Part shown: one piece after another, positions 40,301-61,115 of the stretch
Position numbering within the stretch: the first letter of the stretch is position 1
Layout of the letters: each line of letters begins with the position of its first letter
Assembly: GCF_024498195.1 (NCBI RefSeq)
Contig: NZ_CP101824.1
Coordinates: 1,364,001 to 1,428,000 of the forward strand
Length of the DNA: 64,000 bases
Reading direction: 5' to 3'
Origin: Halovivax cerinus
GTDB taxonomy: Archaea; Halobacteriota; Halobacteria; Halobacteriales; Natrialbaceae
The notes under the pieces: model-generated
The model's input: only the letters and a program-made list of their open reading frames with translations
Told to the model about the DNA's origin: nothing
Database searches by the model: none
Translations under genes and position numbers: made by a program

Positions 40301-42870
40301 CGGTTCGTGAGACGGACGAAGCGGCCGGTTCGGCCGGCCGACGGCGACAGTTCGGCCGTCGCGGCGAGCGCGCTCCCGCGCTCGTCGACGCTCGGCACGC
40401 CGGGGGCGGGAACCGATCCGTGTCGCGTCGGCAGTCGCCAGTCGGCCTCGTCCGCCGTGGTGGCGACGGCGAGCGAGGACGTGCCCGAACCGAGCGAGTG
40501 GTTGTACGGACCGACGGTGAAGTCGACGAGCTCCTTGCCGCTCATCTTCGCCCAGCCGTTGCCCTCGACCCAGACCTCGCCGCTGAGATTTCGCTCCGGC
40601 GTGCCGACGTCGAAACTGCCCTCGAGCCCGCCGGTGGCGCTCACGCCGACGCTGCCACCCGGAGCGGGTGTCTGTGTCCCGACCGTGAGGGAGGCTCCCG
40701 GCGTGACGGTCCCGTTCTGGAAAGCGAACGTCTCGTTGAACTCGCCCTCCATCGCGAGCGACGGGGTGACCGTCGTCTCGACGCCGATGGGATCGAAGTA
40801 CGGCGGGTCCACTTGCATCGGCGGGCCGACCTGCGCGGAGAGGCTCGCCTCCGCTCGCGCGGACGCCCGGACGAACTGGAGGCGCTCCTCGAACGTCGCG
40901 TCGGCCGAGACGTCCGCCTCGAAGCCGTATCCCATCAGATCGGTCGAGAAGCCGCCGCTCCCGTAGCCGGTCGCCCGACGGGTGTAGCTGTCGTACTCGA
41001 CTCCGACTGTGGGACCGCCGGTGAACTGCGGCGCGGACGCGTCGAGCGGGACACCCCCGATCGAGAAGTCGTAGGACAGGTCGAACGGCCTGTAGGCCAT
41101 GTCTATCGTCCCGTTGTCGACGCCCATCGACACGCCGCTACCCCCGTGAACGAGCCAGGTCATCCACTCGGGAACCGGCTGCACCGGGACGTACCGTCTG
41201 GCGGTGTAGTTGTTCCCGCTCTCGTTGACGGCCGTGACCGTCAGGTGGTTCGACGCGCTCAGATTGCCGAGGTCGAACTCGGCCGCGTACGTCTCTGCCG
41301 TCTGCGGGACCGTGACCGTCTCGTTTCCGAGGTCGAACCGAACGTGATCGAATTGGGTTCCGTCCTCGAACGTGGCCGTGAACGTCTCGGTGTAGTTGAC
41401 CGAGGCGAGCGGGACGCCGCCCGTTTCACGGGTGATGGATTCGACCCCGCCGCTCGACGCCGAGACGACGACTTCGCGGGTGTAAGTTCGCCCGTCGACG
41501 TGGAGCGTCACCGGGTAGGTGCCGGCCTCCTCGTAGACGTGCGCGACGCGCTTTCCCACCGCCGCCTCCCCGTCGCCGAACTCCCAGTAGTGGCGATCGC
41601 CGTCCCGACCGGCGAAGGAGACCGCCGTCCACGAACTGGGCGACTTCGGTCCGTAGGTGAACCCGAGCGCCGTCCGGGGTTCGACGTCCGTCTCCACCTG
41701 AACCGTCCCGGCGGTCGGGTCGTCGAGGCGGGTCGAGCCGACGCGCTCGCCGTCGAACCGGACGACGACGTCCAGGTAGTCGTCACTGCGGAACGTAGAC
41801 GGCTGCTGTACGTCGAAGGTCCGCGTCGTCCCGTTCGCGTCGGTGACGGTCCGGTGCCAGGTCGTCCCCTCGTCCGAGACCAGTTCGACTGTCGCACCGG
41901 GGAACGCCGTCTCGCCGTCGTCCAGCAGCACCGAGACGTCGATCGGGACGGTGTCCGGAACCGTGATCGTCTCCGAGTGCGTGGTGTCGGCCTCGACCGA
42001 GACGCTCTTCGAACCGACGAACGCGTCTTCGACGAAGGCCTCGACGGTGTAGGTCTCGCCGCTCGGCAGGTCTTCTATCGTGTGTGGGAGCGGGATACCG
42101 TTTGTGTTCCGACCCGAGTACTTCCCGAGGCGGTCGCCGCTCTCGTTGGAGACGACGATCTCGCTCAGGGTCTCCACGCTCGTCCCGTCGCGGGTGACGT
42201 CCAGTTCGATGTCCCCTGGCGGCTGAGAGAGCACGGTGACCGTCTTGGGCTCCGTCCGTCCGTTCGGTCCCGTCCCGACGAGTTCAGTCGACTCGCCCGT
42301 CTCGAGCCCGAGGTCGTCCGAGACGTGTGCGAAGAAGGAGACGATCTCCCTGTCCGAACCGATATCCGACTTGCACTTCTCAAATCCGCCGGATCCTGTC
42401 TCCCGGAAGCAGAACTCACCACCCGGTGAGGCCGAGACGTTTAGCACCACGGTGATGGTGTCGTCCACGGTCGGGTCCGAATCCGGGGGATAGTCCCAGA
42501 ACACGGAGTCGGCCGCGGGTTCGGTCCCGCTGGTGGTGTTCGCAGTTCCGACAGTAGTCCGTCGGCGGTCCCGGATCGGCGTCGTCTCGCGGTCAGCCGT
42601 GTCGCCACCAGTCGACGCAGCGGCCGGTGACGTCGGCCACGCGGTCGCTGGCGATCCGTCGATCGACACGGTCGATCCCCGGATGGGCCCGGAGACCCCC
42701 GCCGTCGTTGGCGCTCCGATTCCGGACTGGTCCACGTCCGAACCCGGAACGGTGCTTCCCGATATCCCGTCGCCCCCGGCGCCGACCCCGCCGGCGAGAC
42801 CGCCGATGGCGACCACGGCGACGATCACGAACAGTACCGCACGCTCGGCGCGAACGCCCTCCCGTAGCAT
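37387..42870 (-). CDS. Giant PGF-CTERM surface protein with PKD and CARDB domains
   Basis: The 1827-residue exported protein has a signal helix (about 10-32). A PKD domain follows (about 410-475, HYWEFGDGEAAVGKRVAHVY). The middle part contains propeller-like repeats (about 857-1190) that carry motifs such as SPTVAWTGDGWTLAWARDE. Several CARDB-like domains (about 1220-1770) share the pattern YTVSNVGDLNGT or VTVENAGDAAGT. The tail SSVPGFGVLAALVGLAVALS is a PGF-CTERM signal for archaeosortase processing. Sequons are abundant. A TATA-like box lies about 30 bases upstream of the ATG at 42870. It is probably an envelope-anchored binding or structural protein. Confidence 0.85.
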   Translation of the reverse strand: MLREGVRAERAVLFVIVAVVAIGGLAGGVGAGGDGISGSTVPGSDVDQSGIGAPTTAGVSGPIRGSTVSIDGSPATAWPTSPAAASTGGDTADRETTPIRDRRRTTVGTANTTSGTEPAADSVFWDYPPDSDPTVDDTITVVLNVSASPGGEFCFRETGSGGFEKCKSDIGSDREIVSFFAHVSDDLGLETGESTELVGTGPNGRTEPKTVTVLSQPPGDIELDVTRDGTSVETLSEIVVSNESGDRLGKYSGRNTNGIPLPHTIEDLPSGETYTVEAFVEDAFVGSKSVSVEADTTHSETITVPDTVPIDVSVLLDDGETAFPGATVELVSDEGTTWHRTVTDANGTTRTFDVQQPSTFRSDDYLDVVVRFDGERVGSTRLDDPTAGTVQVETDVEPRTALGFTYGPKSPSSWTAVSFAGRDGDRHYWEFGDGEAAVGKRVAHVYEEAGTYPVTLHVDGRTYTREVVVSASSGGVESITRETGGVPLASVNYTETFTATFEDGTQFDHVRFDLGNETVTVPQTAETYAAEFDLGNLSASNHLTVTAVNESGNNYTARRYVPVQPVPEWMTWLVHGGSGVSMGVDNGTIDMAYRPFDLSYDFSIGGVPLDASAPQFTGGPTVGVEYDSYTRRATGYGSGGFSTDLMGYGFEADVSADATFEERLQFVRASARAEASLSAQVGPPMQVDPPYFDPIGVETTVTPSLAMEGEFNETFAFQNGTVTPGASLTVGTQTPAPGGSVGVSATGGLEGSFDVGTPERNLSGEVWVEGNGWAKMSGKELVDFTVGPYNHSLGSGTSSLAVATTADEADWRLPTRHGSVPAPGVPSVDERGSALAATAELSPSAGRTGRFVRLTNRSLEDGQPAIAATNGTVSLAWSRQAANKSVADGQDIAIRTRDDGEWGPQTWLTDNTVHDRRPVLAASDDGRLLAAWTRIDTPLESFDDPAEAFDDYEIAYAVSDGQTWSDPTVLENASTRDRSPTVAWTGDGWTLAWARDELADVGTNETTVTGTDVAVASIGTDGAATRLDTIANARTPAVGPAPESPNASLAYVATDDGATAVERASVDDAVVERNSYPAASVSDLATAGERVAWVEGNVTEPRLVEGRAGNASRLRPDDDTAGITGLSLDANGNETVLTYRARLNGTGANDLVYRLDRGDGWIDDHQFAEPPADDLAVWYPATALTDDGTFLTTFAATNVSATATNDVFAYEHRFRPRYALSVDGPSDATVGDRVPIDYTVSNVGDLNGTAPVNVTIEAGNGTTLGTSTVDPIRTDATATGTFDVPVPASGRFDLSVEAGTTADTEAAPTPIDGTEAAPPPSTATGAHTAASSPSTGGGSTEAAAVERGADATIRVASPALSVDVVTVADPENGTIAVDIANDGGAVATDVPVAIRDGDAVVAETTVDRVAVDGTATWNATVDPADLDRTAPETVEIQPGRSLATDAVAEAGNRTTWLYRPAVTVHEDVTVLNRTDGLVVRGLVSNAGPIGTEMTVSAVRVGANGTATTTLASDRTAVASGASNTTFESVRFHLDDDALAVGETVRIVAEPAVPNDDPATTATTRTVESVTPAPATVGLAVADVTADPVVGEPVSLSVHAENVGMEPTNESLALLVDGNETDDTGVALDSGENATATVAWTPETAGNYTLAVESGDDRVEHTVSVTEQSGGGLPAPPPSTGGPDVSIVDHRLATNAIALGDELSVTITVENAGDAAGTIDLPLAIDGEVATTRQVTVEAGATRTVTLSTAVETTGTHEVAVAGEDVGTVEVSESTGSADDTDGSDGAAGGTESAGDETGAGDGSSVPGFGVLAALVGLAVALSRIGRA

Positions 42871-43287: not shown

Positions 43288-43416
43288 TCAGTCGTCGGCC
43301 GAGTCGCCGGCCGTACGCCGCTCGGCGATGTGCTCCCAGATCTCCGTGCACCCGGCGCCATCGGGTAGTTCGTCCAGATGCTCCGTCGGACGGTCGTCGT
43401 CAGTATCGTTACTCAT
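43288..43416 (-). CDS. Small acidic protein, 42 residues
   Basis: A complete short gene with ATG at 43416 and TGA at 43288. The product contains DELPDGAGCTEIWEHIAERR within an Asp-rich sequence. Codon choice is GC-rich at third positions and a TATA-like gaatattc lies about 30 bases upstream. The central GCTEIWEH block looks conserved in type with other haloarchaeal micro-proteins I recall, but I cannot name a function. It is divergent from the TrmB-type regulator. Confidence 0.6.
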   Translation of the reverse strand: MSNDTDDDRPTEHLDELPDGAGCTEIWEHIAERRTAGDSADD

Positions 43417-43607
43417 ATTCCTAGTAACTCCCATTCACTCGTGGAGTATGAATATTCTGGTTACACGTCCACCACCGTCCGGATCGGACACCCGCGGGTC
43501 ACCGTCCGAGTCGCCGGCTCGGTCCGCTCCTCGAATGCGCTGTCGCCCCGTCGCCGGCGTCGTTCGTTCGACCGCTGTCGTGGACCTCGCGGCCGGCGAC
43601 TCGCACA

Positions 43608-43616
43608 CTTTTATGT
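43608..43616 (+). promoter_or_regulatory. TATA box of the TrmB-type regulator
   Basis: cttttatgt, 27 bases before the ATG at 43639; it favours this start over longer open frames. Confidence 0.55.
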
Positions 43617-43638
43617 CCGGTCCGACGAAGGCCCGAGC

Positions 43639-44496
43639 ATGGAACGGCCCGATACGGAGTCTCTCCTCTCTACGCTCGGATTGAAGGAGTACGAGGCGAC
43701 TGCCCTGGAACACCTGATCGAGTTCGGGCGAACGACGGCGCCGACGATCGCCGACGCGACCGGCATCCCCAAGGCCAGGGTGTACGACGTGCTCGAATCG
43801 CTCGCCGAGACGGGCTTCATCGAGATCATCCCCGGTCGGCCGAAGGAGTACCAGCCGAAACCGCCCGAGACGATCCTCGAACGCGCGATCGAGAACCATC
43901 GTCAGCGGTTCGTATCGGAGCGAGAGACCATCGAATCCATCCGCGAGGACTTCCTGGCGCAGTTCGAGCCGCTGTTCGAATCGGCGAGCAGCTCGGTCTC
44001 CCCCACCGAGGAACTCTTCCACGTGGTCGACGTCGGGACGCCGAGCGAAACCGAGACGCGCCGGCTCTACCACGACGCCGCGGACGCGGTGTACGTCCTC
44101 ACGAAGAGCTTCGAGTATCTCGATAGCGTCGAACCCGCTCTCAGGGACGCGCTCGATTCGGGCGTGTCCGTCTCCGTCCTCTTTCTCGATCCGTCGCACT
44201 TGTCCGCCGACAACCGGGCCGTCCAGCGCGACATCGTCGAGCGCATCGACGCGACGTACCCCGAGATCGCGTACCGTTACAGCACGCACAAGCTCCCCTG
44301 GCGCGGGACGTTCGCCGATCCGAGCATGGACTACGACTCGGGCGACGCCGTCTTGCTCGTCGAGGACCCGGACTTGCCGCTGCACCAGCGCCAGGCGGCG
44401 CTCACGGACAACGGCGCGTTCATCGCCGGCCTCAAGCGCCACTTCGACCTCATCTGGGGGTACGACAGCACCGTGGAGCCATCGGACGACGAGTGA
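43639..44496 (+). CDS. TrmB family transcriptional regulator
   Basis: The 285-residue regulator has an N-terminal winged helix (about 8-75) with LSTLGLKEYEATALEHLIEF and ATGIPKARVYDVLESL, the TrmB signature. A short coiled coil (about 80-110) leads to a C-terminal TrmB-like effector domain that in relatives binds sugars or related ligands. TrmB proteins bind DNA at sugar or metabolic promoters and repress or activate them. Its own targets are not visible; the giant surface protein, the 42-residue protein or the sugar genes downstream are candidates. Confidence 0.88.
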   Translation: MERPDTESLLSTLGLKEYEATALEHLIEFGRTTAPTIADATGIPKARVYDVLESLAETGFIEIIPGRPKEYQPKPPETILERAIENHRQRFVSERETIESIREDFLAQFEPLFESASSSVSPTEELFHVVDVGTPSETETRRLYHDAADAVYVLTKSFEYLDSVEPALRDALDSGVSVSVLFLDPSHLSADNRAVQRDIVERIDATYPEIAYRYSTHKLPWRGTFADPSMDYDSGDAVLLVEDPDLPLHQRQAALTDNGAFIAGLKRHFDLIWGYDSTVEPSDDE

Positions 44497-46291: not shown

Positions 46292-46328
46292 GGAGCACGC
46301 CCACGGCTTCAGCCGTGAGAGGGTGTCA
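46292..46328 (+). mobile_element. Possible IS605/IS1341-type right-end remnant
   Basis: A perfect 7-bp stem cacggct/agccgtg with a 2-base loop (46302-46317) is followed by gagagggtgtca. This pairing of a gct-tc-agc hairpin with a terminal tgtca resembles the right ends of haloarchaeal IS200/IS605-IS1341 (TnpB) elements as I remember them. No transposase or TnpB gene is present. The tgtca end supplies the stop codon (46326-46328) of the minus-strand epimerase. A simple hairpin terminator is the alternative. Confidence 0.4.
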
Positions 46329-47291
46329 ACGCAACAGCCGTCGGATGCTTTCCTCGACGGTCTCTTCGGGTTCCCAGCCGAGGTCAGCGTGCGTGCGCGC
46401 GGTGTCGACGGTGAACGTCTCGACCATGGTCTCGCCGGAGCGGGGGTTCTCGACGAGTTCGATCGGCGGTTCGGTGCCGCGTTCCTCGCCGGCGATCCGC
46501 TGGACCGTCTCGGCGACGGCCATCACGCTGGGGTCCTCGTCGGAGGCGAGGGCGTATTTCGTGACGCCCGTCTCATCATCGTCGCGAGCTGCGAGGAGCG
46601 CCTCGGCGCTGTGGACGTACGCGCGGGCGATGTCTGTGACGTGGACGAAGTTGCGCGACTGCGTCCCGGGTTCGTAGACGGTGAGCGGTTCGCCGGCGAG
46701 CGCGCGATCGACGAAGAAGTTGATCACGGTCCCCTTCGAGACCGTCCGATCGCCGACCGTGTGTTCGCCGTAGAGGTTCGTCTTGAGGTAGACGTGCGCC
46801 GGGAAGGCGCCGTCGGCGAGCGTCTCGATCAGGCGCTCGCCTGCGACCTTCGAGCGGCCGTACCAGTTGAGCGGGTCGCGCGGCTGGTCGGTCGTGATGG
46901 GGAACGTCTCGGGATCGCCCATGACGGCCATGCTCGCCGGGAAGATGAGCGCGGCGCCGTTCCCGCGACACCACCAGGCGACGTCGCCGGTCGCGCCGAC
47001 GTTGACGTCGTAGGTCAGGTCGCGGCTCTCGTCGCAGTCGTCGACGCCGGAGATCGCCGCGAGGTGCGCGACGACGTCGGCGCCGTCTAACGCGGCCGCG
47101 AGGCGGTCCCCGTCGCGTATATCGACGTGCTCGACGGTGACGTCGCCGATCTCGCGGACGCGCCCGCGGTAGAAGTTGTCGAACGCGCTGATCTCCCAGT
47201 CGGGGTGGTGGCGCTGTAGCTCGCCGACCACGCGACTGCCGATGTACCCGGCGGCGCCGGTCACCGCGATTGTCGGGGTACCGTCGGTCAT
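46326..47291 (-). CDS. NAD-dependent epimerase/dehydratase
   Basis: The 321-residue short-chain (extended SDR) enzyme has the nucleotide motif VTGAAGYIGSRV near the N-terminus, the HLAAISG block, and catalytic Tyr/Lys in WYGRSKVAGE. C-terminal substrate blocks include SRNFVHVTDIARAYVHSAEA. Such enzymes modify NDP-sugars for surface glycans. It is the last of three minus-strand sugar genes. Its final codons (RRLLR) abut the possible insertion-sequence end, so the C-terminus may have been altered. The exact NDP-sugar cannot be named. Confidence 0.85.
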   Translation of the reverse strand: MTDGTPTIAVTGAAGYIGSRVVGELQRHHPDWEISAFDNFYRGRVREIGDVTVEHVDIRDGDRLAAALDGADVVAHLAAISGVDDCDESRDLTYDVNVGATGDVAWWCRGNGAALIFPASMAVMGDPETFPITTDQPRDPLNWYGRSKVAGERLIETLADGAFPAHVYLKTNLYGEHTVGDRTVSKGTVINFFVDRALAGEPLTVYEPGTQSRNFVHVTDIARAYVHSAEALLAARDDDETGVTKYALASDEDPSVMAVAETVQRIAGEERGTEPPIELVENPRSGETMVETFTVDTARTHADLGWEPEETVEESIRRLLR

Positions 47292-47436: not shown

Positions 47437-48396
47437 TCATGGGTCCTCGTCGTGTGGTGGGGCGTCGTCTCGAAATCGGTCGGCGAGGTCGCGGATGCCC
47501 TCGCGGAGCGTCCACTCGGGCTCGAAGCCCGTCTCGGCCAGCCGTTCGAAGTTCACGTGGTAGGAGGGGCCGGGATCTTCGTCTTCCATGTAGGTGACGG
47601 CCAGGTCCGTATCGAGTTCCTTGCGGACGAGCGCGGCGATCGTCTCGATCCGGTAGTTGCCCTCGGCGCTCCCGACGTTGTAGACGCGGGCGTCCCACGC
47701 GTCGGGGTCGAGCGCGGCCTGCAGGTAGGCGCGCGCGGCGTCGCGGACGTGGACGAAGGGTCGCCAGTTCGAGCCGTCGCCGTAGACGGTCAGCGGCCGG
47801 TCGGTCAGCGCGCGGAAGACGAAGTGGTTGACGACCAGGTTGAAGCGGATGCCCGGCGCGTAGCCGTAGTTGGTACTCATCCGGAGTGCGGTCCCGGTGA
47901 ACGCGTCGCGGTCTACGTACGTCTCCAGGAGGCGCTCGCCGGCGACCTTGGTCTCCGCGTAGGGATTGAGCGGGTTCTGTTCGGTCGTCTCGTCGATGTC
48001 GGTCGCCGCCGCGCGGCCGTAGTTGTTACACGAGGAGGCGAAGACGACGCGGTCGACGGCGAACTTCTCCGCGGCGGTGAAGACGTTCTCGGTGCCGTCG
48101 CGGTTGACGGCGTGGGTCTCGTCGCGGCGGTCGTGCGTGCTCGCGGCGCCGGTGATCGCCGCGAGGTGGATCACGCGGTCGACGTCCCGCATCGCCTGCT
48201 CGACGTCGCCGTAGTTGCGCACGTCACCGCGGACGAACCGGAGCCCGTCGTCGAGCCTCGCGTCGAGGAGGTTGCGCGGCGACCCCGAGGCGAGCGAGTC
48301 GAGGACGGTCACCCGGGAGACGCGCGCGTCGGCCTGTAATCGGGGGACGAGGACACTCCCGATGTAGCCGCAGCCGCCGGTGACGAGGACGTGCAT
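47437..48396 (-). CDS. NAD-dependent epimerase/dehydratase
   Basis: The 319-residue extended SDR enzyme begins MHVLVTGGCGYIGSVLVPRL, has HLAAITGA, the SSCNNYG block and catalytic NPYAETKVAGE. The pattern RPLTVYGDGSNWRPFVHVRD is typical of NDP-sugar epimerases and dehydratases (GalE- or RmlB-like subfamilies). It stands 9 bases from the SQD1-like gene and is transcribed with it. Its role is to make or interconvert an NDP-sugar for the glycan locus. The product cannot be fixed from sequence alone. Confidence 0.87.
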   Translation of the reverse strand: MHVLVTGGCGYIGSVLVPRLQADARVSRVTVLDSLASGSPRNLLDARLDDGLRFVRGDVRNYGDVEQAMRDVDRVIHLAAITGAASTHDRRDETHAVNRDGTENVFTAAEKFAVDRVVFASSCNNYGRAAATDIDETTEQNPLNPYAETKVAGERLLETYVDRDAFTGTALRMSTNYGYAPGIRFNLVVNHFVFRALTDRPLTVYGDGSNWRPFVHVRDAARAYLQAALDPDAWDARVYNVGSAEGNYRIETIAALVRKELDTDLAVTYMEDEDPGPSYHVNFERLAETGFEPEWTLREGIRDLADRFRDDAPPHDEDP

Positions 48397-48405
48397 CGGC
48401 TCTCG

Positions 48406-49605
48406 TCAGTCCTCCGCCGTCGCCGTCTCGCCGTCCCAGTCGTCGAGGACGCCCGGCAGGAAGCGGTCCTCGTGGGCCGCGATCACGTCCTCGTAGTCGG
48501 TGAGGGTCCCGAGGACGTCGCGCATTCCCTCAGCGAAGGTGACCGACTGCTCGCCGATGAGGTCGGCGTAGCGGTCGTTCTCGATCTCCATCTTGTGGGT
48601 CTCGTCCTCGTCGCGCGGGTTCTCGAAGTGCTCGACGTCGACGTCCAGGTCGAACTCGTCGCCGACGTCCGCGATCGTCTCCGCGATCTCGACGATGCTG
48701 ATGGCGCGGGTGACCTGGTTGTAGACGGTGAGGTCGTCCGGTCGGTCGGCGGGATCGGCGAGGGCGAGCTGTGCGAGCCCCTCGACGGCGTCTTCGAGCG
48801 CGATGAACGGTTTGCGCTGCTCGCCTTTGCCGTAGACGGTCATCGGGTAGCCGGCGATCGCCTGGGCGGCGAAGCGGTGGGCGACGACGCCGAAGTAGTA
48901 GTCGAAGTCGAAGCGCGTCGCGAGGCGGGGATCTGCCGCGGTCTCGGGGGTCTCCGTCCCGTAGGTGATCGCGGTCCGAACGTCCGAGATCGGGATCCCG
49001 AACTGCGTGTGCGCCAGGCGCATGTTGGCCGCGTCGTGGCTCTTCGTGAGGTGGTACCACGAACCCGCCATCGCTGGGAAGGGCACCTCGTCGCGCTCAC
49101 CGCCGTTCTCCATCGTCGCACCGCCCTCCGGGATGGGGAACTCGGGCGCGCCGTAGACGCCCGTCGTCGTGGTCTCGACGAAGTGGGTGTCCGTCATGTC
49201 GTGTTCCTCGAGGCCCCAGAGCAGGTTCCGCGTGGCCTGCATGTTGTTGTGCTGGGTGTAGTTGGCCCGCTCGCCGTTGATCTGCGAGTAGGGCGCGGAG
49301 GGCTGGGCCGCGGCGTGGACGATCGTCTCGGGTTCGTGGACCGCGAGCAGTTCGTCGACGAACGATTTCTCGGAGAGGTCGCCCTCGACGAACGAGAGGT
49401 TCGCGAGGCCGTGGACCTCGCGTGCGGCCTCGAGGCGCTCGTCCATCGTCGCGATGGGGGTCGCACTCGTCGAGCCGACCTCCTCGACCCAGCGCCGCCG
49501 GGCGAGGTTGTCGACGAGAACGACGCGGTCGTCGGTTCGGTCCGCGATTCGAAGGGTGGTCGGCCACCCGAGGTAGCCGTCCGCACCGGTGAGGAGGATC
49601 GTCAT
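48406..49605 (-). CDS. UDP-sulfoquinovose synthase homologue (SQD1 family)
   Basis: The 399-residue extended SDR enzyme matches the SQD1/Agl3 family. It has GADGYLGWPTTLRI at residues 7-20, the QPSAPYSQING block, and catalytic Tyr184 and Lys188 in SWYHLTKSHDAANMR. The segments TRFDFDYYFG and PMTVYGKGEQRKPFIALED are family-specific. SQD1 makes UDP-sulfoquinovose from UDP-glucose and sulfite; Agl3 in Sulfolobus supplies this sugar for N-glycans. The family assignment is strong, but related members may act on other UDP-sugars. It is the first gene of the minus-strand sugar run. Confidence 0.85.
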   Translation of the reverse strand: MTILLTGADGYLGWPTTLRIADRTDDRVVLVDNLARRRWVEEVGSTSATPIATMDERLEAAREVHGLANLSFVEGDLSEKSFVDELLAVHEPETIVHAAAQPSAPYSQINGERANYTQHNNMQATRNLLWGLEEHDMTDTHFVETTTTGVYGAPEFPIPEGGATMENGGERDEVPFPAMAGSWYHLTKSHDAANMRLAHTQFGIPISDVRTAITYGTETPETAADPRLATRFDFDYYFGVVAHRFAAQAIAGYPMTVYGKGEQRKPFIALEDAVEGLAQLALADPADRPDDLTVYNQVTRAISIVEIAETIADVGDEFDLDVDVEHFENPRDEDETHKMEIENDRYADLIGEQSVTFAEGMRDVLGTLTDYEDVIAAHEDRFLPGVLDDWDGETATAED

Positions 49606-49824: not shown

Positions 49825-51480
49825 TCAGTCGAGCGTTCGGCGGACGCGCCGGGCGACCGTTCCGACGGCGGACTCGGCCGTTCGGAGGGCGCGCTCTTCG
49901 ATCGGCGACGAGAGGATCCGTTCCGCACAGAGGCACCCGGACGTCGCGTTGACACCCGCGCCGGGCCAGGTCGCCGCGCCACACGTGTAGAGGCCGTCGA
50001 CGGGGGTGGCGTACCGGGACCAGCCGGGGAACGGTCGCCAGAGGAAGTTCTGTCGGAAGTGGTGACTGCCGGCCACGCTGTCGCCGCCGACGAGGTTGGG
50101 ATTCCCGGCCTCCAGGTCGGCGGGCGAGAGCACGTCCCGCTCGCGGATCTGGTCTTCGAGCCCGGGGGCGTACGTTTCGAGGGCGTCGATCACGCGATCG
50201 GCCACCGGGTCGGCGGCGTCCGCCCAGTCGGTCGCGTCGATCTCGCCTGCGGCGTCGCCCTCGATCTCGGACGGCAGCGCCCTGACCTGCACCCAGAGGA
50301 CGTGTCCGTCGTCGGGGGTCCGGCTCTCGTCGACGGCCGTGGTCTGTCCGACGACGAGCATCGGCTCCGCGGGTATCACGCCGTTCTGGGCGTCGGTGTA
50401 CGTCTCCGCGAGTGTGTCGACGGACGGACCGACGTGGACGTACGCGAACTCCCGCAGGTCCGACCCGGCCGCCCAGTCGGGGCGCTCGTCCAGAGCGAGG
50501 TGGATCATCATCGTCCCGGGACCGTACTCGTAGCGATCGACGCGATCGGCGAACGACGCCGGGACGGCGTCCGCCTCGACCAGGTCACCGAACAGGACCG
50601 TCGGGGTCAGGTTCGCGACGACGGTCTCCGCGGTCTGGATTCGGTCGCCGTCGACCAGTTCGACGCCGGTGACGGCGCCGTCTCTCGTCTCGACGGCCGT
50701 CACCTCGGCGTCGGTTCGCACCTCGCCGCCGCGGGCCTCGACCAGCACCGCGAGCGACTCCGGGACGGCCGACGCGCCGCCTTCGGCGACGCTGATGCCT
50801 CCCTCCAGCGCCGAGAAGGACTCGAGGAACGGGAAGAGGGCGCCGCCAGAGACGTCCGGACCGAAGTCCAAGTGCAGCCCCCAGCAGGCCATCAGGGCCC
50901 TGGCCTCCGGCGTCTCGAAGTACGCCTCCCCCAGTTCGCGCGTCGAACTCAGCGGGATCTGGGCGAGATCAACCAGCCCTGACGGACCCTCCGATCGGAC
51001 GGCCTCGACGAGCGTCCGACCGGCGGCCAGCGACGGGAGCGCCTGGCCCATCAGGGGCGCGAGCGTCTCGGCGAAGCGCCCGAACTCGCCGCGGAGCGTC
51101 TCCCACCCCTCGGCGTCCCCCGCGGAGTGGGCGGCGAGTTCCTCGCGCGTCCGGTCTGTGTCCTGGTACACTCTGAGCGCCGTCCCGTCGGGGAAGACGG
51201 TGGCGAAGGGCTCGCTCGACGTGGCGAACGACAGGCCTTCCTCCTTTAGTTCCGCGCCGAAGTCCTCGTAGACGGCCGATCCGCGGAAGAGGTTCATGTT
51301 CGTCGCGTACGTGTCGTGGACGTAGCCCTCGACCGTGCGTTCCCCGCTGCGCGTCGCCCCGCCGAGGGTCTCGTTGCGCTCGAGCACGCAGACGTCCCGT
51401 CCCGCGTCCGCGAGGTACAGCGCGGCGACGAGGCCGTTGTGACCGCCGCCGACGATCACGTCGTCGTACGTTGGTACCAT
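49825..51480 (-). CDS. Phytoene-desaturase-like FAD oxidoreductase
   Basis: The 551-residue FAD-dependent amine-oxidase/phytoene-desaturase family protein has the N-terminal dinucleotide motif DDVIVGGGHNGLVAALYLAD and the following LERNETLGGATRSGE. The C-terminal FAD block reads DGLYTCGAATWPGAGVNATS. Relatives desaturate carotenoids or other isoprenoids, and some belong to the broader CrtI-like group of unclear role. I chose the ATG at 51480 because it places the GGG motif at the expected start. A TATA-like gcataaatt lies about 28 bases upstream (51504-51512). Confidence 0.85.
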   Translation of the reverse strand: MVPTYDDVIVGGGHNGLVAALYLADAGRDVCVLERNETLGGATRSGERTVEGYVHDTYATNMNLFRGSAVYEDFGAELKEEGLSFATSSEPFATVFPDGTALRVYQDTDRTREELAAHSAGDAEGWETLRGEFGRFAETLAPLMGQALPSLAAGRTLVEAVRSEGPSGLVDLAQIPLSSTRELGEAYFETPEARALMACWGLHLDFGPDVSGGALFPFLESFSALEGGISVAEGGASAVPESLAVLVEARGGEVRTDAEVTAVETRDGAVTGVELVDGDRIQTAETVVANLTPTVLFGDLVEADAVPASFADRVDRYEYGPGTMMIHLALDERPDWAAGSDLREFAYVHVGPSVDTLAETYTDAQNGVIPAEPMLVVGQTTAVDESRTPDDGHVLWVQVRALPSEIEGDAAGEIDATDWADAADPVADRVIDALETYAPGLEDQIRERDVLSPADLEAGNPNLVGGDSVAGSHHFRQNFLWRPFPGWSRYATPVDGLYTCGAATWPGAGVNATSGCLCAERILSSPIEERALRTAESAVGTVARRVRRTLD

Positions 51481-53235: not shown

Positions 53236-53673
53236 CTACACACCTGTTTCGCGAAATCGAACGACGTCGATCTCGATCGGACACGATTCGAAATCGTCGT
53301 CGGCACCTGCGACGAGCGTCGCATCGCTCTCGCGGGCGAGCGCGACGCCGTGTGCGTCCGCAAACGAGATGTGGCCGCCCGCCTTCACTTCGGCGGCGAG
53401 GCGCCAGTCGGCTCGCTCGATCGTTACTCCCCACCGTTCGAGCGCACGGAGATCCCGATCGGCCGTACGAAGCGAATCCGTCGTCGGCTCGTCGTCGACT
53501 CCTTCGAATCGAGCGACGAGATAGCGCACTTCACCGGCGTTGGTCTCGGCCAGCAATCCGTCGACGGCTCCGTCACGGACCTCTCGAAGGTACCGTTCGA
53601 CGACGACCCGGCCCGGTTCGTCGTAGAGATACGCGATGATCGCTTCGGTGTCGAATACGTACGCGTCGCTCAT
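53236..53673 (-). CDS. vapC: PIN-domain toxin (VapC-like)
   Basis: The 145-residue PIN-domain ribonuclease keeps the acidic active-site set Asp8 (YVFDTEAIIAYL), Glu43 (LAETNAGEVRYL), Asp106 (SFADAHGVALA) and Asp125/126 (VAGADDDF). VapC toxins cleave RNA when freed from their antitoxin. It overlaps the AbrB-like antitoxin gene by 4 bases (ATGA) and follows it, the usual VapBC layout. Length is typical of the family. The target RNA is not deducible. Confidence 0.88.
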   Translation of the reverse strand: MSDAYVFDTEAIIAYLYDEPGRVVVERYLREVRDGAVDGLLAETNAGEVRYLVARFEGVDDEPTTDSLRTADRDLRALERWGVTIERADWRLAAEVKAGGHISFADAHGVALARESDATLVAGADDDFESCPIEIDVVRFRETGV

Positions 53674-53975
53674 TCGTCCGCTCCGTCGGTCGGTCGGAGC
53701 CGCTCGGAACGGGCTGCGTCACGCTGCTGTTCGTCGCGTTTCAGTTCGCGAACCCTGTCGAGTACCTCGCCGCGCTCGCGGTCCGCGTCGGCGTGGATCC
53801 CGCCCAATTCCTCGAGCGACGGTATCGGCTCGACGACGATACGGTCGTCTTCCTCGTAGATGAACACCTCGCCGGGAGCGTCGATCCCGAACTTCTCCCG
53901 CAGCGACTTCGGAATCGTCGCCTGTCCCTTCTGCGAGACGCGTACGACCTCTGGGTCCCGAGTACTACTCGACAT
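53670..53975 (-). CDS. vapB: AbrB/SpoVT-type antitoxin (VapB-like)
   Basis: The 101-residue protein has an N-terminal AbrB/SpoVT DNA-binding domain (about 10-52; VSQKGQATIPKSLREKFGID). An acidic helical tail (about 55-95) is where relatives bind and block the PIN toxin. It overlaps the toxin gene. The antitoxin or the complex usually represses its own promoter; a palindrome lies 6 bases before the start codon. It sits between a degraded regulator and a truncated epimerase gene. Confidence 0.85.
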   Translation of the reverse strand: MSSSTRDPEVVRVSQKGQATIPKSLREKFGIDAPGEVFIYEEDDRIVVEPIPSLEELGGIHADADRERGEVLDRVRELKRDEQQRDAARSERLRPTDGADE

Positions 53976-53981
53976 TATGTA

Positions 53982-53992
53982 TTGTACTACAA
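53982..53992. promoter_or_regulatory. Candidate vapBC operator palindrome
   Basis: ttgta-c-tacaa is an 11-base inverted repeat immediately upstream of the vapB start (53975). Its position suits autoregulation by an AbrB-type antitoxin; this is inferred from symmetry alone. Confidence 0.45.
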
Positions 53993-54020
53993 GACCATCG
54001 TATTACTATCTATCGCCGGA

Positions 54021-54533
54021 CGCCCCGTCTCGACGTACGGGACGCAGATGCTCCTGCGCGATCGGTACGCACAGCTGTGGCACGACCGCCACGGCGTCGC
54101 GACCGTTCCGCTTCGATACTGCAACATCTACGGGATGGACGTGGCGGGCGAGACACTGTGCGGCCTGCCGGGGACGTTCGTCAGACAACTGACGGCGGAC
54201 GGCTCGATCACCGTCTTCGGCGACGGCCGCCAGACCCGCGACTTCGTCCACGTCGACGACGTCGTCAGGGCGACCATCGGCGCCGCGACGACGCGACGGG
54301 TTGGTAAGGCGTACACCGTCGGGAGCGGGGAGTCGACTTCGGTGCGGACGGTGGCTCGACTCGTTCGCGACCACGTCGATCCCTCGGCCGAGATCGACTT
54401 CGACGAGGAGTACGACGGTGCGGTTCGAGACAGTCACGCCGATATCTCGAACGCTCGGGCGTGGCTCGACTTCGAACCGACGCGGTCGATCGAGGGGTGT
54501 CTTGGGGATCGGATAGCGGGGGTGTCTCGGTGA
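54021..54533 (+). pseudogene. Truncated NDP-sugar epimerase/dehydratase, C-terminal half
   Basis: From 54021 the frame encodes STYGTQMLLRDRYAQLW, then VPLRYCNIYG, SITVFGDGRQTRDFVHVDDV and a normal C-terminal part, all typical of the back half of extended SDR sugar enzymes. The N-terminal Rossmann half is missing, and the catalytic YxxxK reads YGTQM, so the lysine is lost. It starts right after the vapBC promoter, suggesting truncation by arrival of the TA pair or by deletion. It is unlikely to be active. Confidence 0.75.
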
Positions 54534-54997: not shown

Positions 54998-55582
54998 ATG
55001 ACATCGGAGACCCCCTACGACGACACGTGTACGATCGACGACGGCGCGACGGTCGGATACAGCTACGATGAGGGAACGACACCCCCCGCGATCGGGGCGG
55101 AGACGACGATACGGGCGGGAACGATCGTCTACGACGACGTCGTCATGGGCGAGGGCTGCGCGACGGGACACTACGCCCTCGTTCGTGAACTGACCGAACT
55201 CGGCGACGACGTGCTCGTCGGAACGAACGCCGTGATCGATGGCCGGACGACGGTCGGCTCGCACGTGAGCATCCAGTCCGGCGTCTACGTCCCGTCGAAC
55301 ACGACGATCGGGAGCAACGTCTTCCTGGGACCGTACGCCGTGCTGACGAACGATCCGTACCCGATCCGGCAGGACGTCTCCCTCGAGGGCCCGACGCTCG
55401 AAGACGGCGTCTCCGTCGGCGCGAACGCGACGATCCTCCCCGGCGTGACCGTGGGTGAGGGGTCGTTCGTCGCCGCAGGCGCGATCGTCACCGAGGACGT
55501 GCCGCCGGAGACGCTGGCCGTCGGGACGCCGGCGACGCACCGCCCGCTCCCGGACTCGCTGCAACCCGGAAACGATATCTAA
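54998..55582 (+). CDS. Left-handed beta-helix acetyltransferase (WbpD/WlbB-like)
   Basis: The 194-residue acyltransferase is built of hexapeptide repeats of the form [IV]GxxxxI ([57 protein letters not shown]), giving a left-handed beta-helix. Relatives such as WbpD/WlbB N-acetylate the 3-amino group of UDP-2-acetamido-3-amino-2,3-dideoxyglucuronate. Gene order fits: it is followed by the aminotransferase, oxidoreductase and dehydrogenase of the same pathway. Its end overlaps the next start (TAATG). Without the context it could equally be a serine- or sugar-acetyltransferase. Confidence 0.85.
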
Positions 55583-56667
55583 TGATCTCTATCGCCGCAC
55601 CAACGATCAGCGCCGACGCACAGGAACGCGTTCGCGACGTCCTCGAGAGCGGGATGATCGCGGACGGAGAGACGGTCAGAACGTTCGAAGCCGAGTTCGC
55701 CTCGCTCTGCGAGACGTCACACGGGGTCGCGACCTCCAACGGGACGACCGCGATCGAGGCCACGCTGCGGGGCTTCGGCATCGGCGAGGGCGATACGGTG
55801 TTGACGACCCCCTTCTCGTTCGTCGCCACGGCGAACGCGATCCGCCTGGCCGGCGCCGAGCCAGTCTTCGCCGACATCGACCCCGAGACGTACACGCTCG
55901 ATCCGGACGCCGCCAGGGAGGTGGCCAACGAGACGGACGTCGACGCGATCTTGACCGTCCACCTCTACGGCCTGCCGAGCGAGATGGACGACCTGGTCGA
56001 CCTCGCCGAGGACCTCGACGTCCCGTTGATCGAGGACGCGGCGCAGGCCCACGGTGCGGCCTCCGACGGCCGGCGCGTCGGCTCGATCGGCGACGCCGCC
56101 TGCTTCTCCTTCTACCCGACGAAGAATATGACCACCGGCGAGGGCGGCATGGTGACGACCGATCGTGAGGACGTTTCCGAGCGTATTCGGTCGTTCATCA
56201 ACCACGGTCGCCAGGCGGGTGGCGGCGGATACGAACACGCCGCACTCGGGACCAACTATCGGATGACCAACGTCGCGGCGGCTATCGGCCTGTCGCAGCT
56301 AGAACGACTCCCCGACTTCACCGAACGGCGCCGGACGAACGCCGATCGGCTGACCGCGGGCCTTCGCGACGTACCGGGCGTGACGCCGCCCGTCGAACCC
56401 GACGGAATGCGTCACGTCTACCACCAGTACACGGTGCGGACGGCCGACCGGGACGCGCTGGCGTCACACCTGGAGGCGGAGGGCGTCGGATCGGGGATCT
56501 ACTACCCGACGGCGATCCACGAGCAGCCGGCGTACGACCACGTGACCCACTCGGCGCCCGTCGCGGAGCGAGCGGCCGCGGAGGTCCTCTCCCTGCCCGT
56601 CCACCCCGGCGTGGACGACGCGGACGTGGACCACATCCTGGAGGTGATCGAAGACTATGCAGCATGA
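55582..56667 (+). CDS. DegT/DnrJ/EryC1 sugar aminotransferase (WbpE-like)
   Basis: The 361-residue PLP enzyme of the DegT family has its PLP lysine at 181 (FYPTKNMTTGEGG), Asp152 in LIEDAAQAHGA and the ATSNGTTAIEA cofactor loop near 50. Family members aminate keto-sugars on nucleotides. In the WbpE branch the 3-keto group of UDP-2-acetamido-3-keto-glucuronate is aminated. It overlaps its upstream acetyltransferase by one base and the next gene by 11 bases. The pathway assignment rests on the gene neighbourhood. Confidence 0.9.
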   Translation: MISIAAPTISADAQERVRDVLESGMIADGETVRTFEAEFASLCETSHGVATSNGTTAIEATLRGFGIGEGDTVLTTPFSFVATANAIRLAGAEPVFADIDPETYTLDPDAAREVANETDVDAILTVHLYGLPSEMDDLVDLAEDLDVPLIEDAAQAHGAASDGRRVGSIGDAACFSFYPTKNMTTGEGGMVTTDREDVSERIRSFINHGRQAGGGGYEHAALGTNYRMTNVAAAIGLSQLERLPDFTERRRTNADRLTAGLRDVPGVTPPVEPDGMRHVYHQYTVRTADRDALASHLEAEGVGSGIYYPTAIHEQPAYDHVTHSAPVAERAAAEVLSLPVHPGVDDADVDHILEVIEDYAA

Positions 56668-57670
56668 CGCGAACGGACAGCTCGACGTCGGCGTTATCGG
56701 CGTCGGCTCGATGGGACAGCACCACGCGCGAGTATACGACGAGCTGCCGGGGACGACCCTCGTCGGCGTCACGGACGCCGACATGGACCGCGCCCGGGAG
56801 ATAGCCGACGAATACGGCACGCAGGCGTTCTCGCAGGAGGAATTACTGTCGCGCGTCGACGCCGTCTCGATCGTCGTCCCGACCAGGTACCACTTCGACG
56901 TCCTGGAGGAGGCGATCGAGGCCGGCGCCGCGCCGTTCGTCGAAAAACCCGTCCTCGGGACGCTCGACCAGTCCGAGGCGCTGACTCGGCTGGTCGACCG
57001 GACCGACCTCCCGGTACAGGTCGGCCACATCGAGCGATTCAACCCCGCCGTGACGACGCTGGCGCAGGTCATCGACGACCTCGACGTCGTGAGCATCCGG
57101 GCCCAGCGGCTCGGCCCGCCCCCGGAGCGCCGGATCGACGACAGCGCCGTCATGGACCTGATGATCCACGACATCGACGTCGTCTGCTCGCTGCTCGGCG
57201 AGTCGCCGCGCGAGGTCCACGGCGCCGGCGTCGACGGTAACCGCCACGCCTCCGCGCTCCTCTCGTTCGACGGCGGGACGATGGCGACCCTGATCGCGAG
57301 CCGCAAGACCCAGCGGAAGGTCCGAACGCTCGAGATCACCGCCGAGGACTGCTTCGTCGTGCTCGACTACATCGACCAGTCGATCGAGATCCACCGCAAC
57401 TCCGCGCCGGAGTACGTGAAGGACGAGGGCGGCGTGCGCTTCACCCACGAGAGCATCGTCGAGCGGCCGACGGTGACGAACGCCGAGCCGCTGCGCGAGG
57501 AGCTCGCGTCGTTCTGCCAGGTGGTCCGCGACGGCGGCGAGCCCGAGGTCACCGTCGAGGACGGCCTGCAGGCGCTCGCGGTGGCCCAGTGGATCGAGGA
57601 GTCCGCACGCGGGGGCAGCGAGTCCTCCGACTATCGGCCCCAGCCGGAGGTGCTCACCTCGGATGACTGA
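56657..57670 (+). CDS. Gfo/Idh/MocA oxidoreductase (WbpB-like)
   Basis: The 337-residue NAD(P)-dependent oxidoreductase has the N-terminal Rossmann motif VGVIGVGSMGQHHARVYDEL and the EKPVLGT motif with its conserved lysine. A C-terminal alpha/beta domain includes QVGHIERFNPAV and MDLMIHDIDVV, whose histidine is probably catalytic. WbpB-type members oxidise C3 of UDP-GlcNAcA. It overlaps the aminotransferase gene by 11 bases and the dehydrogenase gene by 8 bases. Confidence 0.88.
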   Translation: MQHDANGQLDVGVIGVGSMGQHHARVYDELPGTTLVGVTDADMDRAREIADEYGTQAFSQEELLSRVDAVSIVVPTRYHFDVLEEAIEAGAAPFVEKPVLGTLDQSEALTRLVDRTDLPVQVGHIERFNPAVTTLAQVIDDLDVVSIRAQRLGPPPERRIDDSAVMDLMIHDIDVVCSLLGESPREVHGAGVDGNRHASALLSFDGGTMATLIASRKTQRKVRTLEITAEDCFVVLDYIDQSIEIHRNSAPEYVKDEGGVRFTHESIVERPTVTNAEPLREELASFCQVVRDGGEPEVTVEDGLQALAVAQWIEESARGGSESSDYRPQPEVLTSDD

Positions 57671-59171
57671 ACGAGACGCCGGACGCGGTAGGGACGCCCG
57701 CGACGGCCGTTCGGATCGCGAAACGCGCGCCGACGGCAGCGACGCGCTCGCGGACAGGGGCGACGCGCTCGCGGACGGCGGCCGGGCCGTCTCGAAACCG
57801 GTGACGTCGCTGTACGGCTCGGACGCGGACGCGGCCGTCCAGCGGGCGTCGTTTCTTGACGGCGAAGTGCCCGTCGCGGTCTACGGCCTCGGGAAGATGG
57901 GCCTACCGCTGGCCGGCGTCTACGCCGAGACCTGCGGGAACGTCCTCGGGGCGGACGTCGATCCCGACGTCGTCGAGACGATTTCGGCGGGCGACTGTCA
58001 CGTCAAGCGCGAGCCCGGCCTCGCGGGGCTGGTCTCGGAGCTGGTCGGCGACGGGGCGCTGTCGGCGACAACGGAGCCCCGGGAGGCGGCCGCGGCGGCG
58101 TCGATCCACGTCGTGATCGTGCCGACGCCCATCACTGAGTCGCACGAACCCGATCTCTCCATACTGGACGCCGTGGTGGACGACATCGGTCGCGGGCTGT
58201 CCGCGGGCGATCAGGTGATAATCGAGTGTACGGTCCCGCCGCGAACGACCGAAGATCGCGTGTTGCCCGCACTGGAGGACGCGTCCGGGCTGGACCGCGG
58301 CGAGTTCGGCCTCGCGTTCTGTCCCGAGCGGACGTCGTCCGGGCGGGCGCTGGAGGACATCCGCGGAGCGTACCCGAAGGTCGTTGGCGGCGTCGACGCG
58401 GAGAGCACCCGCGTGGCGCGGCTGGTGTACGAGGAGATCAACGCGAAGGGCGTACTGTCGACGTCGGACGCGACCACCGCCGAGTGCGTGAAGGTCTTCG
58501 AGGGGCTGTACCGCGACGTCAACATCGCCCTGGCGAACGAACTCGGCCGGTACGCCGACGAGCTGGGCGTCGACGTCCGCGAGGCGATCGACGTCGCGAA
58601 CACCCAGCCGTTCTGCGACATCCACGACCCCGGCCCCGGCGTCGGCGGGCACTGCATCCCGTACTACCCGTACTTCCTGATCGAGCCGTTCGAGACGGAC
58701 TCGACGCTGCTGGAGACGGCCCGCGAGGTCAACGACTCGATGCCCGACTTTACGGTCGGGAAACTTCGCGAGGAGCTGGCCGCCAGGGGCGTGGCCCTGT
58801 CCGAGGCTTCGGTTGCGGTACTGGGGCTGACCTACCGTCCCGGCGTCGAGGAGATCCGCGCCTCGCCGTCGATCCCGATTTCGGCGCACCTGTCCGAGGC
58901 GGGGGCTGACGTCTACGGCGTCGATCCCCTGCTGGAAGACCACGAGGCGTTCGATCTGGAGCCCGTCGACCTGGACGAGCTGTCGTCGATCGGCGTGGAC
59001 GCCGCCGTCGTGGTGACGCCGCACGAGGAGTTCGACGCGATCGAGTGGGACTCGCTCGGCCGAAACGGTGACGGACCTCTGGTCGTGATAGACGGGCGAG
59101 ACACCCTCGAACCGAGCGCGATGCCGGCCGGGACCGCGGTGTACACGATCGGCACGGGGTCGGCCGAATGA
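57663..59171 (+). CDS. UDP-sugar 6-dehydrogenase (WbpA-like)
   Basis: The 502-residue UDP-glucose/GDP-mannose dehydrogenase family member has the NAD motif VYGLGKMGLPLAGVYAE (73-89). Catalytic features are Lys277 and Asn287 in ECVKVFEGLYRDVNIAL and nucleophile Cys331 in GPGVGGHCIPYYPY. WbpA/UDP-GlcNAc dehydrogenase oxidises the 6-hydroxyl to a uronic acid. The first ~45 residues are acidic and repetitive (DALADRGDALADGGR) and not part of the fold; a GTG at 57801 is a possible shorter start. It is the last of the four sugar-acid genes and is followed by the glycosyltransferase. Confidence 0.88.
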   Translation: MTERDAGRGRDARDGRSDRETRADGSDALADRGDALADGGRAVSKPVTSLYGSDADAAVQRASFLDGEVPVAVYGLGKMGLPLAGVYAETCGNVLGADVDPDVVETISAGDCHVKREPGLAGLVSELVGDGALSATTEPREAAAAASIHVVIVPTPITESHEPDLSILDAVVDDIGRGLSAGDQVIIECTVPPRTTEDRVLPALEDASGLDRGEFGLAFCPERTSSGRALEDIRGAYPKVVGGVDAESTRVARLVYEEINAKGVLSTSDATTAECVKVFEGLYRDVNIALANELGRYADELGVDVREAIDVANTQPFCDIHDPGPGVGGHCIPYYPYFLIEPFETDSTLLETAREVNDSMPDFTVGKLREELAARGVALSEASVAVLGLTYRPGVEEIRASPSIPISAHLSEAGADVYGVDPLLEDHEAFDLEPVDLDELSSIGVDAAVVVTPHEEFDAIEWDSLGRNGDGPLVVIDGRDTLEPSAMPAGTAVYTIGTGSAE

Positions 59172-59185
59172 GGGAAGACTGAGAC

Positions 59186-60349: not shown

Positions 60350-61115
60350 AGACTTTACGTACGAGATCTACGAGGAGCTACTGCAGGCGGGACTGGACGC
60401 AGGCTACGAGCACATCACCGTGCGGGAGTACCTGGACTCGGACGCGCTACCCGAGCGGTTCATCATCCACCGCCACGACGTCGATCGAAAGCCGGAGAAC
60501 TCGCTGGCGATGGCTCGGCTCGAAGCCGAGTACGATATCCCGAGTACGTACTACTTCAGAACGATCGACAAGACGTTTCAGCCGGAGCTGATTCGAGAGA
60601 TCGAGGATCTCGGGCACGAAATCGGCTACCACTACGAGGATATGGATCGGGTTGACGGAAACGTTGCAGAGGCGCACGCGTCGTTCGCGACGCACCTTGA
60701 ACGACTTCGAGAACACGCAACGATCGATACGGTGTGTATGCACGGGAACCCGTTGACGGCGCACGACAACCGTGACATGTGGACCGGCGATCGTGGGTTC
60801 GACGAGTACGGGCTACTCGGTGAAGCATACCTCTCGATGGACTTCGTCGACGTGACGTACTTTTCCGACACTGGTCGGACGTGGGAGGATGGAGATTTGA
60901 AGGTGAAAGATCATCCGGTCGGGGAGAGCAGTAAAACAGTAAGTGCCGATGGGACTGCGGAATTGATCGAACTGGTTGCTGAAGCACGCGTCCCCGGTCT
61001 TTGTTTGCTGTCTCACCCAAATCGCTGGGCGGAAACTACGCCCGAATACGTAACGGAGTACTCGAAGGACGCTGTAACGAACGTTGGTAAGCGGATGCTC
61101 AACCTCGTACGATGA
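60342..61115 (+). CDS. Polysaccharide-deacetylase-like protein
   Basis: The 257-residue protein has the metal-binding start IHRHDVDRKPENSLAMARLE, the helix EYDIPSTYYFR and the IGYHYED and MHGNPLTAHDN motifs of the polysaccharide deacetylase (NodB-like) superfamily. Such enzymes remove acetyl groups from sugars. It starts with a GTG overlapping the GT2 gene. Context places it in glycan modification. From here the base composition begins to fall, and the downstream genes are clearly more AT-rich. Confidence 0.75.
   Translation: MTRDFTYEIYEELLQAGLDAGYEHITVREYLDSDALPERFIIHRHDVDRKPENSLAMARLEAEYDIPSTYYFRTIDKTFQPELIREIEDLGHEIGYHYEDMDRVDGNVAEAHASFATHLERLREHATIDTVCMHGNPLTAHDNRDMWTGDRGFDEYGLLGEAYLSMDFVDVTYFSDTGRTWEDGDLKVKDHPVGESSKTVSADGTAELIELVAEARVPGLCLLSHPNRWAETTPEYVTEYSKDAVTNVGKRMLNLVR

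Follow-up and report, generated by a model that had tools for sequence, protein, structure and literature searches.

The closest described enzymes to the gene studied here are SQD1 of Arabidopsis (PDB 1I24, 1QRR and 1I2B) and Agl3 of Sulfolobus acidocaldarius, an SDR whose sugar is destined for an N-glycan. In the mutagenesis of Agl3, replacement of His95, Arg101, Met145, Tyr182 or Lys186 by alanine resulted in an inactive protein, and the E147A and Y148A variants retained 12 and 15% activity, respectively (PMC4388408). In the part of a review that gives sequence fingerprints, UDP-sulfoquinovose synthases are described by [ST]MG-xn-Yx3K and GalE by [ST]-xn-Yx3K (PMC8987622). Haloarchaeal relatives have also been described. 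The genome paper of Haloquadratum walsbyi named such a gene SqdB, described it as sharing an operon with two GalE homologs and assigned it to sulfolipid (PMC1544339), and the 2015 Agl3 paper placed the haloarchaeal enzymes in a cluster of their own (cluster IV; 36 identical residues instead of 64), its authors leaving undecided, where they discuss the clusters, whether these differ in mechanism (PMC4388408). The clade and its operon are thus already in print, and what is new here is the evidence from the residues and from the wider gene context.

The sulfonated aminosugar 6-sulfo-QuiN (sulfoquinovosamine) is 6-deoxy-6-sulfo-glucosamine. According to the passages that describe it, the S-layer N-glycan of Haloarcula hispanica contains 6-sulfo-QuiN in a trisaccharide (PMC9943897), and in the sources consulted the sugar is known from this one species only. 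Those passages name no synthase for it; the 2015 and 2020 Haloarcula papers that they cite may name one.

The SQD1-like protein and its active site

The gene lies at 48406..49605 on the minus strand of the window, by which we mean the whole 64,000-nucleotide stretch of Halovivax cerinus DNA that was analysed, and in the list of open reading frames it starts with ATG and encodes 399 aa. The original prediction held that the motifs GADGYLGW, QPSAPYS, YHLTKSHD and VYGKGEQRKPF match the SQD1/Agl3 family closely and that the protein is a UDP-sulfoquinovose synthase. All four motifs were found in the translation, and their counterparts in the alignment with SQD1 are GGDGYCGW, QRSAPYS, YHLSKVHD and VYGKGGQTRGY. 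A phmmer search of the PDB sequences returned SQD1 as the top match (E 4e-71, residues 3-349), a similarity well above chance, with the best non-SQD1 match at E 1e-4. The top fold match of the AlphaFold model, which has a mean pLDDT of 75.3, was likewise SQD1 (1QRR; 352 residues at rmsd 2.8, Z 38.0), ahead of the next fold family at Z 28.1. We drew no pocket geometry from this model because the pLDDT falls below 50 at residues 102-111, 149-168 and 170-182, which form part of the pocket. The homology to SQD1, the nearest solved relative, thus extends over most of the length of the protein. The NCBIfam cut-off for GalE was not reached (43 bits vs 262.3). In the 3.9-Mb single contig of its own genome, the protein had four further matches, all of them weak SDRs with an E of 5e-10 or worse. 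These results place the product of 48406-49605 among the NAD-dependent extended SDRs of the SQD1 family by both sequence and fold, which agrees with the original prediction as far as the broad family goes; its narrower assignment as a UDP-sulfoquinovose synthase fails the defining tests described below.

Hereafter, QP denotes the clade of the window protein and QR the SQD1/SqdB type, both named for the residue at the position of Arg101. Against NCBIfam NF041015 the window protein scored 344.5 bits, below the cut-off of 575, and four QR-type controls were below it too (328, 317, 458 and 507.5 bits); the score was therefore rejected as a test of membership.

Identity to SQD1 is just 31-32%. The two proteins have the catalytic Thr, Tyr and Lys, the GxDGYxGW NAD motif and the NPRxE segment in common, and the changes from SQD1 to the window protein are R101 to P, M107 to Q, L143-G144 to TT, M146 to T, Q209 to T and T262-R263 to RK. 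Compared with Agl3, the window protein retains the counterparts of three essential residues, namely His97, Tyr184 and Lys188, the last two forming the catalytic Y184-x3-K188 (YHLTK; 49042..49056, minus strand). However, some differences hit the other two: Pro102 (codon 49300..49302, minus strand) stands at the place of Arg101 of Agl3 and SQD1, and Thr148 in TTTGVYG (codon 49162..49164, minus strand) at that of Met145 of Agl3, which is Met146 of SQD1. Both places were identified from the alignments, and their coordinates were calculated from the start of the open reading frame. Agl3 itself has EQRSAP and GTMGEY, as read from the mutagenesis primers in its paper (PMC4388408).

These replacements are a property of the clade. 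Both Arg101 to Pro and Met145 to Thr were found in 80 of the 80 haloarchaeal loci listed, and in all 80 of them TTG stands in place of the [ST]MG fingerprint. When 100 QP rows, many of them near-copies, were compared with nine QR rows (SQD1, one archaeal gene and seven bacterial plasmid genes, including that of Loktanella), the Arg101 position was Pro in 100/100 and Arg in 9/9, respectively. At the Met145 position, the QP rows carried Thr in 99 cases and Met in one (L125), and the QR rows carried seven Met, one Leu and one Ile. The change at Met145 is hence not absolute in the QP clade, while the Pro occurs in every one of the 100 aligned rows. Under the thresholds chosen, 22 positions separated QP from QR, and 10 of them fall in four motif segments (window residues 100, 102 and 108; 145, 146 and 148; 211 and 212; 264 and 265), which we infer to line the active-site pocket, judging from the motifs rather than from a ligand-bound model. 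The Glu147 position is not diagnostic because Val, the residue in question, is also normal in several QR-type sequences. T147, Y184 and K188 were invariant in a 25-sequence alignment, in which the NPRxE segment was also kept. One QP sequence from outside that alignment, L134, which is among the 100 rows, has Arg instead of the catalytic Lys.

We also noted a third SQD1-like type in two loci, L140 (genome G010) and L141 (G278), with EISSAPYSM and TMGEMG in the former, EIPAAPYSM and TMGEYG in the latter, and Arg101 missing from both. In another haloarchaeal genome (G550), an intein-like insert sits inside the catalytic YHxxK of the gene at L157:3328-5592 (minus strand); it starts with CYDDETEIL, ends with CGN and carries a LAGLIDADG_3 domain, so that the SQD1-like frame is 755 aa long.

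Phylogeny and distribution of the QP clade

A phylogenetic tree was built with IQ-TREE from 47 rows, comprising 42 family rows picked for spread and five outgroup SDRs. In this tree, the QP clade (31 rows, support 97/89) was sister to a group that united SQD1/SqdB with two more rows (11 rows, support 100/96), and the SQD1/SqdB group alone had a support of 98/94; the root is tentative, given the long outgroup branches. The window protein therefore did not fall inside the SQD1/SqdB clade, in a tree from which Agl3 itself was absent. Nor did it group with non-sulfonate SDR subfamilies, the placement that the original prediction had named as its refutation, as far as the five outgroup SDRs represent them.

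All genomes in which the QP clade was met belong to the window's phylum. At E<=1e-50, relatives were found in 111 of 292 genomes of the class and in 45 of 77 genera. The lowest identity among these matches was 64%, compared with 33-41% for SQD1/SqdB types, and no SQD1/SqdB-type sequence was among them; this E limit could miss the most distant sqdB types, which come close to it. A phylum-wide draw yielded a match at E<=1e-15 in 40 of 392 genomes. The archaeal QR-type gene (locus L139, genome G188) comes from family f13, in which the other eight matching genomes carry the QP type. The gene of H. walsbyi, represented by a metagenome-assembled genome (L084), belongs to the QP clade and has the same three-gene order as the window; in print it is a UDP-sulfoquinovose synthase, whereas the residues and the context found here argue for another substrate.

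Gene context of the three-SDR module

In the window, the SQD1-like gene is followed after 9 bases by SDR2 (47437..48396, minus strand), an epimerase/dehydratase-type extended SDR of 319 aa, and after a further 145 bases by SDR3 (46326..47291, minus strand), a GalE-like extended SDR of 321 aa. This order is conserved. In the haloarchaeal locus set, which holds 80 of the 122 relatives found, relatives of both SDR2 and SDR3 lay downstream of the SQD1-like gene in 74 of the 80 loci by tblastn; when the best match per query was taken, all three genes were found in 77 loci and stood in identical order and strand in 76, the two counts differing in the labelling of places. Relative to the window, the median identity was 81% for the SQD1-like protein, 69% for SDR2 and 66% for SDR3. 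Both SDR partners were also present in 12 of 21 further loci, a set that includes three non-QP loci; in distant loci, the assignment of a gene to SDR2 or SDR3 is uncertain, as one gene can take either label. Relatives of SDR3 show S-M-A where the [ST]MG motif would be.

Convergent with the module is a gene for a TrmB-family regulator (43378..44496, plus strand; Pfam PF01978, TrmB domain at aa 97-164), whose true start probably lies downstream of the listed one. Among the 80 haloarchaeal loci listed, a TrmB-family gene was within about 8 kb of the module in 28 and GlmS in 22 (21 loci from 13 lineages at E<=1e-60). Of 17 deep QP loci (L129-L138 and L142-L148), 16 had TrmB, always on the upstream side and with no other queried gene between, and 9 had GlmS. 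In six of them (L132, L135, L142, L143, L146 and L147), a run on one strand comprises the SQD1-like gene, one or two SDRs, GlmU1, GlmU2 and GlmS, with a single SDR ahead of GlmU1 in L135. Both GlmU-type proteins of L132 exceeded the NCBIfam cut-off for archaeal GlmU, and its GlmS, truncated where the locus ends, scored 346.8 bits against a cut-off of 418. Within the window's genus, a genome with a 91% identical protein (L158) has TrmB, GlmS and GlmU after the module. L140, of the third type, also has GlmS, GlmU and TrmB.

GlmS, GlmU and TrmB were found in 0 of 8 QR-type loci; seven of these come from bacteria and the single archaeal locus, L139, spans just 8 kb, so that the contrast in GlmU/GlmS between QP and QR loci partly reflects archaea versus bacteria and locus length. 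The product of the SqdB-type gene of Loktanella (L152) belongs to the same superfamily and is of similar length to the window protein; however, it is of the QR/TMG type, glycosyltransferase and oxidoreductase genes follow its gene, and the 13-kb locus had no match to GlmU, GlmS or TrmB. Taken together, the recurrent partners of the QP module, that is, two epimerase-type SDRs, TrmB and GlmU/GlmS, point to aminosugars. An STT3-like gene was near the module in 10 of the 80 haloarchaeal loci listed (4 lineages), and an AglM-type UDP-glucose dehydrogenase in 16.

The original prediction had placed the gene in a glycan locus and linked it to a uronic acid operon. Genes for a hexapeptide acetyltransferase, a DegT aminotransferase, a UDP-GlcNAc 3-dehydrogenase-like protein and a UDP-sugar dehydrogenase do lie at 54998-59171 (plus strand), and their predicted products suggest a 2,3-diamino-uronate route. 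This link to the operon was not borne out: when six proteins from 54998-62170 were searched for in 82 loci (40% identity, E<=1e-40), the sugar-nucleotide dehydrogenase was found in two and the other five in none, and the operon was rejected as conserved context. A wider link with uronic-acid genes may nevertheless hold, given the AglM-type dehydrogenase noted above. A carotenoid-type FAD oxidoreductase gene at 49825-51462 was likewise rejected as a member of the unit, related genes being found in 0/80 and 0/82 loci, and a sigma-70-type promoter scan was set aside because it says little for an archaeon. At the border of the glycan genes there is a pair encoding a PIN-domain (toxin-like) protein and a MazE-type antitoxin-like protein (53236-53975, minus strand). 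An epimerase remnant (53793-54533, plus strand) matches the 240-position Epimerase profile just from position 137 to 240. The 1827-aa product of 37387-42870 (minus strand), which has CARDB and PKD repeats, is probably located on the cell surface.

Proposed substrate and product

We propose that the SQD1-like protein would convert UDP-GlcNAc or UDP-GlcN, together with sulfite, to UDP-sulfoquinovosamine for the S-layer N-glycan, a reading to which we give an even chance. The reaction would follow the chemistry of SQD1, in which C4 is oxidised, the C6 hydroxyl is lost, sulfite adds to the 5,6-ene and re-reduction follows. Its substrate would be UDP-GlcNAc or UDP-GlcN rather than UDP-glucose and its product UDP-6-sulfo-quinovosamine, possibly with the N-acetyl group still on. 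SDR2 and SDR3 may provide partner sugars such as UDP-galactose, or epimerise them, and the sulfonated aminosugar would then be incorporated in the S-layer N-glycan. We infer what SDR2 and SDR3 do, as well as the substrate, the use of sulfite and the product, and take the chemistry of Agl3 and the trisaccharide of H. hispanica from print. Half of this reaction, 5,6-dehydration of a UDP-HexNAc, has a precedent in TunA, a UDP-GlcNAc 5,6-dehydratase, which differs, in the account of the review, in its TCE acid/base motif and in having no sulfite addition (PMC8987622).

The case for this reading centres on H. hispanica, with which we identified genome G394 from a 100% match over 2965 bases and from coordinates as in pHH400. 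Its SQD1-like gene encodes a protein of 82.7% identity to that of the window, with QPSAPYS, TTTGVYG and YHATK. A QR-type query (E<=1e-6) hit this gene at E 6e-77 and, weakly, SDR2 at E 1e-8, and no other SQD1-family gene was found in H. hispanica by this search. The next gene, 48 bases past SDR3, has a 777-aa product that carries STT3 and AglB_L1 domains; GlmS is on the opposite strand, about 7.5 kb past SDR3, and a partial GlmU-type match was seen at the end of the fetched stretch. Across Haloarcula, the gene was present in 31 of 32 genomes, the one with no match being 58% complete. To our knowledge, SQD1-type sulfite addition is the sole route to sulfonated hexoses. The SQD1-like protein of H. 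hispanica is the best candidate for the 6-sulfo-QuiN synthase because no other SQD1-family protein was found in that species, its gene lies beside an STT3-type gene, and many of its relatives have GlmU/GlmS genes beside theirs. For the bis-PMP derivative of Hex2-sulfoquinovosamine we calculated a mass of 898.30, which fits the reported m/z of 898; the alternatives were calculated at 899.29 for sulfoquinovose, 940.31 for the N-acetylated sugar and 914.30 for a glucosamine O-sulfate. Against the proposal, the amine of the reported 6-sulfo-QuiN is free, and its formula is shared by an O-sulfated 6-deoxyhexosamine.

The main counter-evidence is the replaced Arg and Met. If the enzyme makes a sulfonated glucosamine, the changes in the pocket would reflect the different substrate; since two residues essential in Agl3 are replaced in nearly the whole clade, the handling of sulfite may instead have been lost. 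The frequencies of the STT3-like gene and of GlmS in the 80 loci (10 and 22) also tell against the proposal, as do the distance and opposite strand of GlmS in H. hispanica, the single species from which 6-sulfo-QuiN is reported, and the window's own genome, whose two full glmS genes are both far from the module. Inspection of neighbour clusters by eye pointed to no sulfite-supply gene.

An ordinary nucleotide-sugar SDR that has no sulfonate chemistry, such as an epimerase, dehydratase or reductase that oxidises C4 of a UDP-HexNAc as part of the three-SDR module, therefore stays a strong rival, because Agl3 needs Arg101 and Met145; we regard this alternative as possible, if on the improbable side. 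In place of these residues (Arg101 throughout and Met145 in all rows but one), the clade carries QP, TTGVYG and R-x4-YG, which are common in plain epimerases. The GalE fingerprint, given in the review as [ST]xnYx3K alone (PMC8987622), is satisfied by the window protein, and a linkage to GlmU/GlmS would suit any UDP-HexNAc pathway. SQD1 is, however, clearly nearer than any epimerase in both fold and sequence (Z 38 vs 28; E 4e-71 vs 1e-4), and H. hispanica needs an enzyme for 6-sulfo-QuiN, for which its sole SQD1-family protein found is of the QP type. A true UDP-sulfoquinovose synthase, which would use UDP-glucose and sulfite as implied by the SqdB name given in H. walsbyi (PMC1544339) and by the treatment of cluster IV in the Agl3 paper (PMC4388408), in the parts of these papers that deal with the gene, is a weaker rival, and we consider it unlikely. 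Membership in the SQD1 family by homology favours it, and two QR-type proteins, L152 and L153, score no higher on NF041015 (328 and 317 vs 344.5 bits). Against it stand Pro at Arg101, Thr at Met145, the missing [ST]MG, the position in a sister clade and the GlmU/GlmS context, together with the report that the glycan of H. hispanica contains 6-sulfo-QuiN, not sulfoquinovose, as the passages on it state (PMC9943897). On the basis of the residues and the wider gene context, the QP-clade enzyme is probably not a UDP-glucose enzyme, and the label of UDP-sulfoquinovose synthase should be avoided for the gene. The idea of a sulfonated sugar on surface glycans, also part of the original prediction, survives as plausible, and the assignment to UDP-sulfoquinovose synthase was not supported.

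Haloferax volcanii bears on the argument from H. hispanica. A methyl-sulfoquinovose glycan has been described there (PMC8241124, PMC9263693, in the passages on this glycan), and a further source states, where it mentions the species, that it is without an Agl3 homolog (PMC4245038). A sulfonated sugar may thus need no SQD1-family gene, or the assignment of the glycan errs; an alternative route of sulfonation, if real, would weaken the H. hispanica argument. For Archaeoglobus, considered as a second case, the literature passages are silent on a sulfonated sugar in its glycan.

More tentatively, and as a proposal that we hold to be somewhat short of probable, a sulfonated-aminosugar pathway may be ancestral to the phylum, in which a TrmB-linked set of GlmS, two GlmU-type proteins and three SDRs would lead from fructose-6-phosphate towards UDP-sulfoquinovosamine. 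The SQD1-like enzyme would then found a family of sulfonate synthases specific for UDP-GlcNAc/GlcN, with a rebuilt pocket, and more than one third of haloarchaea would make the sugar for their surface glycans with a gene labelled as sulfoquinovose-making. The UDP-sulfoquinovosamine reading would supply a candidate gene for the orphan sugar of the H. hispanica S-layer and would correct a label in print since 2006, as SqdB of H. walsbyi, and carried as 'cluster IV' in 2015. If it is true, sulfonated sugars would be common in haloarchaea, with relatives of the gene in 111 of the 292 genomes.
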